32,036 nucleotides of DNA, taken from assembly GCA_947459205.1 (NCBI GenBank), contig CANHCR010000031.1:1-32036 (forward strand), given 5' to 3'. A program made the position numbers and the translations under genes. Below, piece after piece: positions 2,614 to 8,017 of this stretch; the stretch's first letter is position 1, and each line of letters opens with the position of its first letter. A model generated the notes under the pieces. It was not told where the DNA came from, searched no databases, and worked only from the letters and a program-made list of their open reading frames with translations. This DNA is from Caryophanales bacterium (GTDB lineage Bacteria > Bacillota > Bacilli > Paenibacillales > CANHCR01).

Positions 2614-2643
2614 ATCATAACCGCAAAAAAGAAACCGCCGCAA
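2614..2643 (-). promoter_or_regulatory. Possible promoter for the ABC exporter gene
   Basis: On the minus strand TTGCGG and TATGAT are separated by 18 bases. The -35 element overlaps the terminator stem of the upstream surface-protein gene, so this is only a candidate; the other option is readthrough from upstream. Confidence 0.3.
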
Positions 2644-2667
2644 CCCAACGGATGAGTTGCAACGGTT
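2625..2667 (-). terminator. Intrinsic terminator of the large surface-protein gene
   Basis: On the minus strand AACCGTTGCAAC pairs with GTTGCGGCGGTT (two internal mismatches), followed by a run of TTTCTTTTTT. It lies about 35 bases after the stop of the surface-protein gene. Confidence 0.75.
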
Positions 2668-2701
2668 CCTGATTACTTAAAACTCGTTTTTTGCTAATAC
2701 A

Positions 2702-5700
2702 TTAGTTTGCCAACGTATTCACGCTCACTGCTGTTGACTGTGCCGAACGATTGTTTGCTGCATCGTATGCTAGCACTCTTACATTATACGATGTATTCGC
2801 AGTCAGATTCGCAAACGTATAACTCGGACTCGATGCCGTAGCAATGTAAGCACCATTCAAATAAACATTATAACCTCTCACACCAACATTATCAGTCGAT
2901 GCTGTCCAAGATGCAGTAAATGCGTTTCGAGTAACGTTCGAAGTCGTAACATTACTTGGTACAGTTGGAGCGACAGTGTCAATCACAGGTTCGCCATTCG
3001 TGATCACGCGATTGTTTAATTGGAACGTACCAAGTTGGAAATTATAATTTCTCGTTGCATTATTATCCCAAACGCCTGCACCATTATTGAATGCCGCCTC
3101 AATACCAGTTGCAGTGCCAATGTTTAACGTAATAACGTTAAAGCCTGCATAAGTTGATGGCTGCATAACAATTCCTGGAGATACTGTCCATGCACCACCA
3201 ATTGGGCGGTAGTGAATATTTGAAACTGTGCCGCTTGCTACTCGATAGAAAATTCGAATCGTGTTATTCGCTGCTGTTGTAACGGACAACGGTGTCGACA
3301 GAGCAGATTGATTATTTGCGTCATCAAGCGCTCTAATTGTATATACATAAGTCGTACTTGCCACTGTCGCGTTATCTGTAAATCTGTTTGTTGTCACTGT
3401 TGATAGCAGTGTTCCATTACGCAACACTTGATAACTTTTAACACCTACATTGTCTGTAGAAGCCGTCCATGTCAAAGTCACTGTCGTCGCTTGTAGCTGA
3501 GTAGTCAACACATTAGATGGTACCGCAGGTGCAATGGTGTCAATGAAAGGTTCGCCTACTTTTACTGTATTGTTCTCAACAGTTGACGTGCCCATCAAAA
3601 TCATATAATCCTTCGTGGCATTGTTATCCCACAAACCGTTACCATTAGTGAATGCTGCGCGCAATCCAGTTGCTGTACCCAAATCCAAAGTTACAACATG
3701 ATAACCATTAATCGTTGACGTATTCATTCTTGTACCTGGCGCGACTGTCCATGTACCACCGTTAGGACTATAGTGAATAAATACATTGCCATTCCATGAT
3801 ATCGGTGCTTTGTAATAAACGGTTGCTTTGTTAGAAGCAACTAAACTTGCTGTCAACGTATTTCCTGCCATATAGTTTCCTGCCGCATCAAGTGCTCGGA
3901 TTGAGTATACATAAGGGATATTCTCAACAATACCACTATCTGTGTAAGTTAATCCATTCGTGACTGTCGCCACAAGCACACTGTTGCGATAGATTTGATA
4001 TGCCGTCACTCCAATGTTGTCTGTTGCCGCACTCCAAGTCAGCATAATTGACGAATTGGTTTGCGATGCTTTGCGCAAATCTGTGATTGCTGATGGATTC
4101 GCCAAATCGATGTTCAAATTGCCGATCGTCGCCAAAGCACTGTTGCCGGCTTTATCCATTGTTGTACCAGTTGTGCTTACATTTGTTCCAGATTGGTTTA
4201 ACGTAATCGGTTGCGTACATGTCGCAATTCCAGAACCATTATCGGAACATGTAAATTCGATTGTAACTGGCGTTGTATACCAACCATTTGCGTTCGGCTC
4301 AGTTGTCGTCGTGCCGCTGATGATTGGAGCTGTTTTGTCAATCAAGATGTCTTCTACTTCGATGGTCGCGCTATTACCTGCCAAATCCATAACAGTAATT
4401 GTCTCGCCTTCTGTCAATCCTTCGCTGCTAATGACGATGTCAGTTGGGCATTCCACCACGCCAGACAAGTTGTCCGTACATGTGAAGCTGATCGTCACAT
4501 CGGACGTGTACCAGTCGCCATTTTTTGTCCCGCTTACGGTGTAACTAACAACCGGTGACTCGAGATCAATGTTGATGCCCTCTACACTTGTGTTGGTCTC
4601 ATTGCCTGCAACATCAATTGCTGTTCCAATCACTTTTGCATTTTCTACAGACTCGTTCAATGTCAATGATTCCGTGCAACTTGCGATATCTGATAATTCA
4701 TCCGAGCAACCGAATGCTACCGTTACTGGTGTATTGTACCAACCATTTGCGTTCGGCGCAGTTGTCGCCGTGCCGCTGACGATTGGTTTTGTTTTATCGA
4801 TAAAAATTTCTTCAATTTCAAACAAGAAACTGTTTCCTGCTTGATCATCAACAATTACCATCAATCCAGATGTACTGCCCTCTTCACTAATGATAAGATC
4901 AGCAGGACATTCCACGATACCAGATAATAGATCAATGCACGTAAATCTGATTGTGACATCTGAACTGTACCATCCGCCATTTTTCGTACCGTTTATCGTG
5001 TAATTTACAACAGGTACATCCATGTCGATGTTGATTCCATTAAATAAGAGTTCCGTTATGTTTCCTGCTTTATCGAAAATCTCGACCACAGCATTCAAAT
5101 CAATTCCCGATTGAGTAAATTCGATCGCATCCGGACAACTTACCACGCCGGACAAGTTATCAGAACATGTAAACTCAATCGTTACTGATCCGTTATACCA
5201 CCCGTTTGCATTTGGTAATGTCGTTGCAGCCCAAGTAACAATTGGTGCTGTTTTATCAATCTTAAATTCTTCGATATTTACTTCAACTACATTCCCTGCC
5301 AAATCTTCGACCATATAAGATAAGCCAGACGTAATCCCTTCATTGCTGATGACCACATCAGCTGGGCATTCTACAACACCCGACAACAGATCAGCGCAAA
5401 TAAATCTAACTGTTACATCTGATGTATACCACTCACCATTTTTCGTTCCAATTAATGTATAAATCACTTCTGGAGCATCCAAATCAACATTTACACCTTC
5501 GATGGCATATTCCGTTTTGTTTCCTGCCACATCAAACACTTCTAAAGTTTCAGTATAGTTTTGGACATTCTCTGCAAAATCGATTGGCAAAGGACAAGTA
5601 ACAACACCAGATTGTTCATCAGTACATGTGAATTCGAATGTAACAGGTCCGTTATACCAGCCATTTGCATTTGGAGTCGCAGATGCAATACCACTTACGA

Positions 5701-8017
5701 TCGGCGCTGTTTTATCAATTTGCAGGTCGATAATTGTAATCGTCGTCTCATTACCTGCAAAATCATACACCGTAAATGTCAAGCCAGTTGTGAATCCTTC
5801 AGTGGAAATCGTTTGATCACTCGGGCATGTATCTACACCCGACAAGTCATCGTCACACTGAAAAGAGATTACAACATCCGAAGTATACCAACCATTTGAA
5901 TATGTCCCGGTCAGCGTGTAATTAACAATTGGTGCAGACAAATCGATATTTACAACTGTTTCTACCAGCGTAATATTTCCTGCCACGTCCACAGCCTCGG
6001 CAATTACCAATTGATTTTCACCTGAAGTGCTAACAACTTGAGATACAGGACAAACATCAACACCAGCATGCGGATCTTCGCAGTTATACTCTAGGAGAAC
6101 AGGTGCATTATACCAACCGTTACTATTCGCTGCAGGAGCAACTGTCGTTGTCACTGTCGGACCATCAATATCGATGTTAATATTCTCAATTGTGACTGTC
6201 GTGCTGTTTCCTGCCTGATCAAAAACAGTTACAACAATTTGCTGACTGATGCCACTTTCCGTTAATGTGATCAACGAAGGGCACTCTTCAATTCCAGAAA
6301 CAGCATCTTCACAATAAAATTCTGCCGTTACATCCGAAGAATACCAGTCACCGTTGAAATCACCTGAAAGTAAATATTCTACAATCGGTGCAACTTTATC
6401 AATATGAATATCGCTAATCGTCAATTCTGTGGAATTACCAATCAAATCTGTGGCAGTGACAACCACGGACTGACCGAAAGCTTCCGTTGATAATGTTTGA
6501 GAAGCGGGACAAACAGCAACGCCCGACAAATCATCCGCGCAAATAAAATCGATGGTTACATCGTTTGTAAACCATCCGCTGCTATTTGCTGATTGTGAGA
6601 TACTATACAAAATTTGCGGACCTACTTTGTCAATATCAATATTTTCAACCGTTATACTATTGCTATTACCTAATTTATCAGTTGCAGTCAAAGTTATCGA
6701 TTGATCTGCACCACTATCTGTCAATGTTGTCGTTTGTGGACAAACAGCAACCGGCGATAATGAATCAGAACATGTGTAAGAAATGATCACATCTTCTTTG
6801 TACCATTCACCTGTTTTCGAAGTTTCGATTACATAATTAATTTCAGGGCCAGTAATGTCAACGCCAAAATCTAACGCCGCTGTATTCAAAGGGTGCGCAC
6901 TTTCTACAACAGAAAGTAGATGCACACTTTCCGATAATGAATCAACTACTTCATATGTCCATTCGCCATTCAAGTCTGCAGTTGTTTGTCCTAATTTTAC
7001 GTTATTAACGTACACATCGAGAACAGCACCTACTCCGGATAATCCAGTGATTGATGGCGTAGAGTCTGCTATAAATTGTTCGTTTGTCGGGCTAATAATA
7101 CTAATAGCAACCGGTTCGCGATACACATGAATGTCAAATTTTTGAGTGGTTAGACCATCTTCAGCAGTCACTTCGACTTCAAATTCGTTATCACCAACCA
7201 ACAACGGTAAATCTGCAGAAAATTCACCACTTACAATTTCGACACCATTTAACTTCAATGCTGCCTTCTCATCTTCCGCATTTGCTTTCACTTGTATTTC
7301 ATCAATGTCTTTTCCAACCGTGACATAGTAAGCAAATTGGCTATTCGAGAACGAAGGTGAGAGTTCACCCTCAGACAACTCTAGTCCGCTCAAATTTGCA
7401 TTCTTCGATGGCACATAAATAATCGTCGAAAACCCTAAGTCATTATGTAGATTATTAAAGTAATTGACGTTGTTTGTGCGTTTTTTCCACAACGTACCTT
7501 TGCTATAACCCAAAGTAGGATTCGTCGAAGTCAATGTTTCGCCAAGTGTGAAAAATGATCCGCTCGCACAGTTTACACAAGCAAATTTGAGTGCGTATTT
7601 TTCACCTACATTCACATCTGCCGGTGAAGCAAAATCAACTCGTTGCCAACCGTTCGCAATCGGGTTGCGAATAAACGATCCAGTAACGACAGTCTCGGTA
7701 GGTTTGCCGCTTCTGTCTAGCTGTACGATTTGAACATGTAGTCGTCCCAAACCTGCTGATCCCGCTTGACCAACCTTGAAAAACTCAATTGCGCTCAATT
7801 TCCCTGTAGTGCCCACTTCAAATGTCTGATACAAAGAATGTCCAACATTATTAATGGTGCCCACTTGCTGCGAACGTTGGAACGATGCTGGTTTGTGACT
7901 TTGATCCGTCACCTCCGCCGCCTGCACACCGACCGCCGTGAACAATAGCGCACTTAACACGACGAACAATGGTGCAATCCAATACCAAACGTTACTTCTT
8001 ACGATTGTCATTTGCAT
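2702..8017 (-). CDS. Giant secreted repeat protein with cadherin-like, Ig-like, FnIII and CBM25-type domains
   Basis: This 1771-residue protein has a Sec signal peptide (hydrophobic core about residues 12-30, likely cleavage after VQA). In order I see: an N-terminal beta-rich domain with a CxxC pair (about 45-205), a cadherin-like beta-sandwich beginning NANLSGLELS (about 206-300), an Ig-like segment (about 300-389), twelve repeats of about 76 residues (390-1306), then FnIII (1307-1395), CBM25-type module (1396-1491), FnIII, a second CBM25-type module (about 1585-1677) and a final FnIII to the C-terminus. The CBM25 calls rest on the YYK...IHY...W.V.PG...AAF.NG.G.WDNN pattern typical of starch-binding modules. 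No catalytic domain, LPXTG motif or SLH domain is visible, so I infer a secreted or non-covalently held polysaccharide-binding adhesin or matrix protein. The start has GAGGAGAGGG five bases upstream. It ends at an intrinsic terminator. Confidence 0.9.
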   Translation of the reverse strand: MQMTIVRSNVWYWIAPLFVVLSALLFTAVGVQAAEVTDQSHKPASFQRSQQVGTINNVGHSLYQTFEVGTTGKLSAIEFFKVGQAGSAGLGRLHVQIVQLDRSGKPTETVVTGSFIRNPIANGWQRVDFASPADVNVGEKYALKFACVNCASGSFFTLGETLTSTNPTLGYSKGTLWKKRTNNVNYFNNLHNDLGFSTIIYVPSKNANLSGLELSEGELSPSFSNSQFAYYVTVGKDIDEIQVKANAEDEKAALKLNGVEIVSGEFSADLPLLVGDNEFEVEVTAEDGLTTQKFDIHVYREPVAISIISPTNEQFIADSTPSITGLSGVGAVLDVYVNNVKLGQTTADLNGEWTYEVVDSLSESVHLLSVVESAHPLNTAALDFGVDITGPEINYVIETSKTGEWYKEDVIISYTCSDSLSPVAVCPQTTTLTDSGADQSITLTATDKLGNSNSITVENIDIDKVGPQILYSISQSANSSGWFTNDVTIDFICADDLSGVAVCPASQTLSTEAFGQSVVVTATDLIGNSTELTISDIHIDKVAPIVEYLLSGDFNGDWYSSDVTAEFYCEDAVSGIEECPSLITLTESGISQQIVVTVFDQAGNSTTVTIENINIDIDGPTVTTTVAPAANSNGWYNAPVLLEYNCEDPHAGVDVCPVSQVVSTSGENQLVIAEAVDVAGNITLVETVVNIDLSAPIVNYTLTGTYSNGWYTSDVVISFQCDDDLSGVDTCPSDQTISTEGFTTGLTFTVYDFAGNETTITIIDLQIDKTAPIVSGIASATPNANGWYNGPVTFEFTCTDEQSGVVTCPLPIDFAENVQNYTETLEVFDVAGNKTEYAIEGVNVDLDAPEVIYTLIGTKNGEWYTSDVTVRFICADLLSGVVECPADVVISNEGITSGLSYMVEDLAGNVVEVNIEEFKIDKTAPIVTWAATTLPNANGWYNGSVTIEFTCSDNLSGVVSCPDAIEFTQSGIDLNAVVEIFDKAGNITELLFNGINIDMDVPVVNYTINGTKNGGWYSSDVTIRFTCIDLLSGIVECPADLIISEEGSTSGLMVIVDDQAGNSFLFEIEEIFIDKTKPIVSGTATTAPNANGWYNTPVTVAFGCSDELSDIASCTESLTLNESVENAKVIGTAIDVAGNETNTSVEGINIDLESPVVSYTVSGTKNGDWYTSDVTISFTCTDNLSGVVECPTDIVISSEGLTEGETITVMDLAGNSATIEVEDILIDKTAPIISGTTTTEPNANGWYTTPVTIEFTCSDNGSGIATCTQPITLNQSGTNVSTTGTTMDKAGNSALATIGNLNIDLANPSAITDLRKASQTNSSIMLTWSAATDNIGVTAYQIYRNSVLVATVTNGLTYTDSGIVENIPYVYSIRALDAAGNYMAGNTLTASLVASNKATVYYKAPISWNGNVFIHYSPNGGTWTVAPGTRMNTSTINGYHVVTLDLGTATGLRAAFTNGNGLWDNNATKDYMILMGTSTVENNTVKVGEPFIDTIAPAVPSNVLTTQLQATTVTLTWTASTDNVGVKSYQVLRNGTLLSTVTTNRFTDNATVASTTYVYTIRALDDANNQSALSTPLSVTTAANNTIRIFYRVASGTVSNIHYRPIGGAWTVSPGIVMQPSTYAGFNVITLNIGTATGIEAAFNNGAGVWDNNATRNYNFQLGTFQLNNRVITNGEPVIDTVAPTVPSNVTTSNVTRNAFTASWTASTDNVGVRGYNVYLNGAYIATASSPSYTFANLTANTSYNVRVLAYDAANNRSAQSTAVSVNTLAN
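4099..6851 (-). repeat. Array of twelve ~76-residue Ig-like repeats arranged as six A/B pairs
   Basis: The encoded repeats start at a (A/G)P.V motif and carry (G/N)WY..(D/P)V...F.C.D..SG...C, then D.AGN and end in ID(K/L). Each has two cysteines about ten residues apart. From the fourth repeat onward they alternate between a TKNG.WYTSD type and a PNANGWYN.P type. The CCATTTGC-like element of the second type recurs at 4281, 4740, 5199 and 5658, exactly 459 bases (153 codons) apart, then 456 bases to 6114. The last two copies differ at only 3 of about 47 bases from 4281 and 4740, which points to recent tandem duplication of a two-repeat unit. Confidence 0.88.

Follow-up and report, generated by a model that had tools for sequence, protein, structure and literature searches.

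Gene and protein architecture

The window, the whole 32,036-nucleotide stretch analysed here, carries on its minus strand a gene (2702..8017; all features described below lie on this strand) whose open reading frame and Pfam matches indicate a multidomain protein of 1771 amino acids that is probably secreted and non-catalytic. An AGGAG-type sequence resembling a ribosome site lies directly upstream, and a hairpin search located a terminator-like structure of 18 pairs followed by a T-run directly 3' of the gene (2630..2670). The neighbouring genes, which by Pfam encode an ABC transporter, a D-Ala-D-Ala ligase and an aconitase, look unrelated. The G+C content of the gene is 41.9%, against 48.1% for the window, making it AT-rich relative to its surroundings.

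Hydropathy indicates a probable signal peptide (approximately residues 1-34; 7916..8017) with a putative cleavage site; this N-terminal segment is strongly hydrophobic, and no other part of the protein is. The segment is followed by a weak DUF4082-like domain (residues 65-156; 7550..7825; 24.0 bits, below the Pfam cut-off of 28.4), a cadherin-like beta-sandwich domain (PF12733; residues 219-301; 7115..7363) and a Big_13-like Ig domain (residues 312-379; 6881..7084; 22.8 bits, below the cut-off of 27). A single-sequence structure model of the N-terminal region (pLDDT 40) was unusable. Beyond an array of Ig-like repeats, the C-terminal part contains two copies of the starch-binding module CBM25 (PF03423; 175.9 bits against a Pfam cut-off of 27.3), located at 3530..3835 (E 4.7e-29) and 2984..3268 (E 8.7e-26), and a C-terminal fibronectin type III domain identified by Pfam and profile matches (residues 1687-1762; 2732..2959), with more fn3-like stretches ahead of the CBM25 modules and in between. 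Pfam detected no catalytic domain, for example GH13, in the 1771-residue protein at E<=0.001, and Pfam and hydropathy revealed no surface anchor in the form of an LPXTG-like motif, a C-terminal or second strongly hydrophobic segment, or an SLH domain. From this domain content we infer a secreted, non-catalytic, starch-binding protein, both its function and its secretion being predicted.

Two-domain periodicity of the Ig-like array

The central part of the protein consists of twelve Ig-like repeats (R1-R12) of 76-77 residues each, encoded in a single minus-strand open reading frame at approximately 4106-6856. A single array of twelve repeats had been anticipated in the original prediction, together with an element recurring at 4281, 4740, 5199, 5658 and 6114. 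Both were confirmed: all five positions encode an NGWY motif, and the spacings are 459, 459, 459 and 456 bases. Because the array is on the minus strand, position 4281 falls inside the C-terminal repeat, R12. Repeats R5, R7, R9 and R11 (type A) have 76 residues and R6, R8, R10 and R12 (type B) have 77, counting the closing Asp in the case of R12, so that an A/B pair spans 153 residues, or 459 bases; the 456-base step arises because R4 is one residue short. The one-residue difference between the two types lies in the loop ahead of a conserved Trp.

Base identity within the array is 0.524 at a lag of 459, whereas lags 30-1399 average 0.260 (s.d. 0.023). At the protein level, repeats two positions apart are on average 0.49 identical, against 0.40 in permuted orders (p ~1e-4), whereas immediate neighbours are 0.37 identical. 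Alternation had been claimed for all twelve repeats. It holds in R5-R12 (residues 693-1304; 4106..5941), where repeat alignment gives a protein identity of 0.54 for repeats of the same parity and 0.35 for those of different parity, but it is absent from the diverged N-terminal block R1-R4 (residues 388-692; 5942..6856), where both values are 0.38. The array contained no direct repeats at a seed of 12 and a length of 40, and Tandem Repeats Finder reported no array at the repeat region.

Divergence and age of the repeats

Whole-repeat DNA identity does not exceed 65% for any pair (R7/R9, with R10/R12 at 64%), and the best whole-repeat protein identity is 63%. Towards the C-terminus, adjacent 459-base units have identities of 63%, 60% and 58%; two more unit comparisons (32% and 48%) cannot be set beside these, being ungapped and located at the shortened R4 or past it. 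According to Nei-Gojobori counts, the proportion of differing synonymous sites is 0.73-0.84 in eight of the ten lag-2 pairs, while R4/R6 has 0.70 and R10/R12 has 0.55; dS is above 2 or infinite in nine of the ten, R10/R12 giving 0.98. Since synonymous sites are thus saturated or nearly so, the duplications can be dated only as old.

Neighbouring copies of the recurring element had been described as differing at about 3 of 47 bases. This is true of the copies at 4281 and 4740, in R12 and R10, and of no other neighbouring pair, the remaining three differing at 18, 17 and 24 of 47. The accompanying suggestion that divergence is greatest among the N-terminal repeats and falls along the array is borne out for the array as a whole (Spearman 0.85, p 0.0017, over ten lag-2 pairs that overlap and are not independent). 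It takes the form of a step between R1-R4 and R5-R12, not of a slope, as the trend within R5-R12 is not significant (rho 0.37, p 0.47).

A patch of identity between R10 and R12

Comparison of bases and codons showed that codons 1-19 of R12 (4280..4336) and of R10 (4739..4795) share a 57-base patch in which 51 bases are identical. Wherever the two repeats encode the same residue within the patch the codon is also the same (14 of 14), compared with 9 of 25 such positions in codons 20-72 (Fisher p 9e-5; Met and Trp excluded). The patch is best read as the trace of a local gene-conversion-like event, and it is probably the source of the near-identity on which the original prediction drew. Such a transfer alters the sequence of a repeat, not the number of repeats.

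Alternatively, the patch might reflect constraint or chance in place of recombination, an explanation that we regard as improbable. It does cover the conserved W motif, and chance has a small but non-zero share, in that a run of 14 identical codons arose in 3 of 1,000 codon shuffles. However, over the same 19 codons no more than 36-38 of 57 bases agree between R6 or R8 and R10 or R12, which shows that the codons are not dictated by constraint on the motif, and the R10/R12 identity ends sharply at codon 20. A literature search on gene conversion in bacterial Ig-like stalks returned, as judged from the search entries, nothing on the present protein.

A paralogous array and the phylogeny of the repeats

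The same genome encodes a paralogue on another contig (C40), with fn3 and CBM25 domains and four repeats (P1-P4) in the order ABAB that follow the 76/77/76 geometry; its 5' side is lost at the contig end. We placed these repeats in two trees, one of 97 rows, drawn from the 159 repeats that scored at least 60 bits with at most three per foreign locus, and one of 16 rows and 77 columns, in which R4 and P4 are long rows and a single branch is starred. A separate clade of the four paralogue repeats was rejected (p-AU 0.008). In the 97-row tree P1 joined R1 and P3 joined the A repeats, both on starred branches, and P4 stood beside R12 with weak support; P2 scored best against R12 and R10. The larger tree also contained an A clade of R3, R5, R7, R9 and R11 together with P3 (support 98/87), while in the smaller tree R5, R7, R9 and R11 formed a clade (90/76) beside P3 (94/90), neither branch being starred. 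R6 and R8 were joined in both (99/98 and 92/81, respectively). A matching B clade was neither recovered nor rejected (p-AU 0.21), and neither tree divided the repeats cleanly into six of type A and six of type B.

Because the paralogue repeats group among those of the present array, and the arrays have four and twelve repeats, the A and B types are older than the split between the paralogues, and the arrays differ in repeat number. The clade of R5, R7, R9 and R11 in the smaller tree is consistent with an enlargement of R5-R12 in the present lineage after that split. Growth by two-domain units is well supported as the history of R5-R12: of the proposal that A/B pairs are duplicated, the part concerning the past survives, as pair duplication best explains R5-R12 and the four-repeat paralogue shows that pair number has changed, but the part concerning the present is not supported.

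A second possibility is that the alternation, instead of recording pair duplication, is a product of convergence, with neighbouring domains having to fit one another and selection keeping alternating types. The alternation is older than the paralogue split and has been retained although silent sites are saturated, and the A and B types differ by a residue in the loop ahead of the conserved Trp, all of which would suit such an explanation. It nevertheless seems unlikely to us, as R1-R4 belong to the same array and do not alternate, and multi-domain units are, according to the available text of a survey, a common mode of growth in domain-repeat arrays (PMC1553488).

Related arrays and the question of present-day length change

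With the whole protein as query, a search of genome contigs gave 20 matching stretches, none of them a relative of the whole protein. Phage records gave no match, and plasmid records gave 12, all below 60% identity. A repeat profile found matches in 24 of 296 genomes of the order (E<=1e-8) and in 3 of 398 genomes of a class sample (E<=1e-15), its own genome included in each count. The order-level matches mostly comprised one strong repeat per protein and therefore could not be used as orthologous arrays.

Searching genome contigs with the six A/B pairs identified 34 loci. Arrays with at least three repeats made up 35 rows, which include the present array and its paralogue and some frames found twice, and in six of these rows (L043, L044, L079, L082, L091 and L100) the best repeat pair reached at least 80% DNA identity. 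In the Bacillus sp. FJAT-27225 array (L082), single units are 95-100% identical. In a Peptococcaceae array (L079), two of its three repeats are duplicated at 100% DNA identity and the third at 88%; the duplicated three-repeat unit of this array and of L091, both from Peptococcaceae BRH_c4a, is a candidate for a recent multi-domain duplication, or else an assembly effect. Five actinobacterial arrays (L080, L083, L084, L086 and L088) correspond one-to-one, with 19 of 19 reciprocal best matches in each of the ten comparisons, a count made after removing a single low-scoring repeat each from L080 and L084 and leaving out L087, which is split over two frames. These 19-repeat arrays keep their order across several genera, and the highest similarity within them is often between repeats three or six positions apart, which suggests a fixed three-repeat super-period. 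The one repeat family thus occurs in three states, saturated here, with units 95-100% identical in Bacillus sp. FJAT-27225 and a Peptococcaceae genome, and fixed one-to-one in the five actinobacterial arrays, the latter two states occurring in distant relatives, and it could serve to ask what makes a stalk stable or variable in length.

Two proposals would have the array changing in length. It is doubtful that the A/B stalk is still recombining in such a way that conversion tracts like the 57-base R10/R12 patch preserve short stretches of identity from one B repeat to another, at which rare unequal crossovers would lengthen or shorten the array by exactly one A/B pair, letting pair number vary slowly between lineages and tune stalk length. 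Still less probable, and indeed very improbable, is the expansion proposed in the original prediction, in which A/B pairs would be expanding or contracting at present, as in 'Periscope'-like length-variable proteins, and pair number would differ between strains: the exact 459-base period through R5-R12, a patch suggestive of recombination between copies in the not too distant past and a paralogue with four repeats and not twelve all speak for it, but no repeat pair or adjacent unit attains the 95-100% identity of the family's true recent duplications, and synonymous sites are saturated or nearly so. Growth at the C-terminal side was not shown, as a single clade of the last four repeats (R9-R12) was rejected (p-AU 0.0003). 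An exact period in DNA can long persist under constraint on domain length, whereas recent duplication requires near-identical DNA; by eye the two look alike.

Predicted fold, calcium site and disulfides

An AlphaFold model of R9-R12 (pLDDT 96.5, pTM 0.75) shows a tandem Ig-like beta-sandwich. Among the top Foldseek matches are GhpA, SiiE and an ice-binding adhesin, interspersed with complement and further Ig-like proteins. SiiE (2yn5) aligned to the model with a Z of 7.3 at 3.3 A over 148 residues, corresponding to two repeats, a Z range that is common for unrelated models, and the top structural match, a Deinococcus S-layer protein, reached a Z of 8.5 but at 20 A rmsd. Such middling Z values are evidence on the fold of the model and not on its function.

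An inter-domain Asp triad (D76 of the preceding repeat, D31 and D60) is present in all twelve repeats, in all four of the paralogue and in 236 of 254 other repeats, and a pair of cysteines in 12/12, 4/4 and 136/254, respectively, the other repeats being matches of at least 40 bits and hence biased to conserved repeats. The cysteine pair makes one disulfide per repeat probable. In the SiiE type I Ca2+ site, as described in the available text of PMC5466336, one Asp is likewise contributed by the preceding domain and two by the next, and a profile match that is weak and not significant (E 0.21) places D60 and D76 in line with SiiE. By its resemblance to this BIg type I site, the triad suggests that the stalk is probably stiffened by calcium.

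A model for the stalk

We consider it likely that the array is an old Ig stalk, probably stiffened by Ca2+ and bearing disulfides, that spaces the CBM25 modules, arose partly by pair duplication and is not changing in length at present. The twelve repeats would form an elongated, rod-like stalk between the N-terminal beta-sandwich region on one side and an fn3-CBM25-fn3-CBM25-fn3 region on the other, with calcium at the Asp triads stiffening it and one disulfide in each repeat. An ancestral A/B array would have predated the split from the four-repeat paralogue; R5-R12 would then have been enlarged, long ago, by unit duplications that preserved the A/B phase, leaving as the sole recent event visible the conversion-like transfer between R10 and R12, which covers about 57 bases. 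It is plausible that the carbohydrate-binding modules owe their reach to the number of repeats, although no anchor was found. With Ig domains of typical size, a stalk of this kind would be about 45-50 nm long when extended.

Comparison with known systems

The predicted protein resembles the Periscope Proteins (SasG, Rib and SHIRT), which in the accessible portions of PMC8201768 and PMC9704523 are likewise exported and carry a stalk of tandem folded domains of more than 50 residues, here twelve repeats of 76-77 residues with a confident beta-sandwich model. It differs from them in repeat identity, for which PMC8201768, in the portion available, gives a criterion of at least 80% and which here peaks at the 63% (protein) and 65% (DNA) given above. 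A cell-wall motif such as LPXTG, typical of Periscope Proteins if not universal, is absent. The stalks of SiiE and other BIg adhesins (PDB 2YN5; PMC5466336, available text) share the tandem Ig-like arrangement with the present protein, whose Asp pattern, as read from sequence, may correspond to their three-Asp inter-domain site with one Asp from the preceding domain. SiiE, however, is described there as a type 1 secreted Salmonella protein of 53 domains, whereas the present protein has a likely signal peptide, and cysteine-paired domains ahead of CBM25; the signal-peptide-like N-terminus argues for a route other than type 1 secretion.

Elsewhere, the closest arrays (Deinococcus L071, Bacillus L082, Intrasporangium L080 and Peptococcaceae L079) each score above the cut-off for NF047446 (OmpL47-type), for NF038114 (PxKF-associated) or for both, with three of five relatives scanned reaching that for NF047446. 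In contrast, the present protein scores 30.4 bits on NCBIfam NF047446, where the cut-off is 40, and has no PxKF match. None of the twelve single repeats had a convincing Pfam match either (best E 0.0053), and with the OmpL47 model below its cut-off this cysteine-paired branch of repeats seems to be without a curated model.

MaAmyA and MaAmyB of Microbacterium aurum, as presented in the available text of PMC5093618, are large, exported, starch-acting proteins that also have CBM25 and FNIII domains; the present protein differs in having a twelve-domain Ig stalk and no GH13 catalytic domain. The domain-repeat survey, in the part of its text available (PMC1553488), describes growth by several domains at once, often in the middle of an array, and the likeness to the present array lies in the multi-domain growth. 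According to the same text, repeat proteins are much commoner in eukaryotes, whereas the present case is bacterial.

The starch-binding set of the genome

Among 60 genomes searched, CBM25 matches numbered 38 in the genome of the window (G000, 2.5 Mb) and 65 in a second genome (G010, 2.7 Mb), compared with at most 7 in each of the other 58, so that two small genomes of the order stand out by a strong expansion of CBM25. With 38 matches in its genome, the present protein appears as part of a large starch-binding set. We scanned ten further CBM25 frames of this genome, one more (on contig C20) lying outside the scan, and found an alpha-amylase domain in five, an SLH domain in one and a CotH domain in one. 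The SLH domain lies near the C-terminus of a 2485-residue fn3/CBM25 protein on contig C6 (L130:2520-9974); the set thus includes at least one protein with a recognisable anchor to the surface. On contig C16, a frame of 1250 residues (L128:3754-7503) fuses four CBM25 modules to a CotH-kinase domain, a pairing that is, to our knowledge, unusual.
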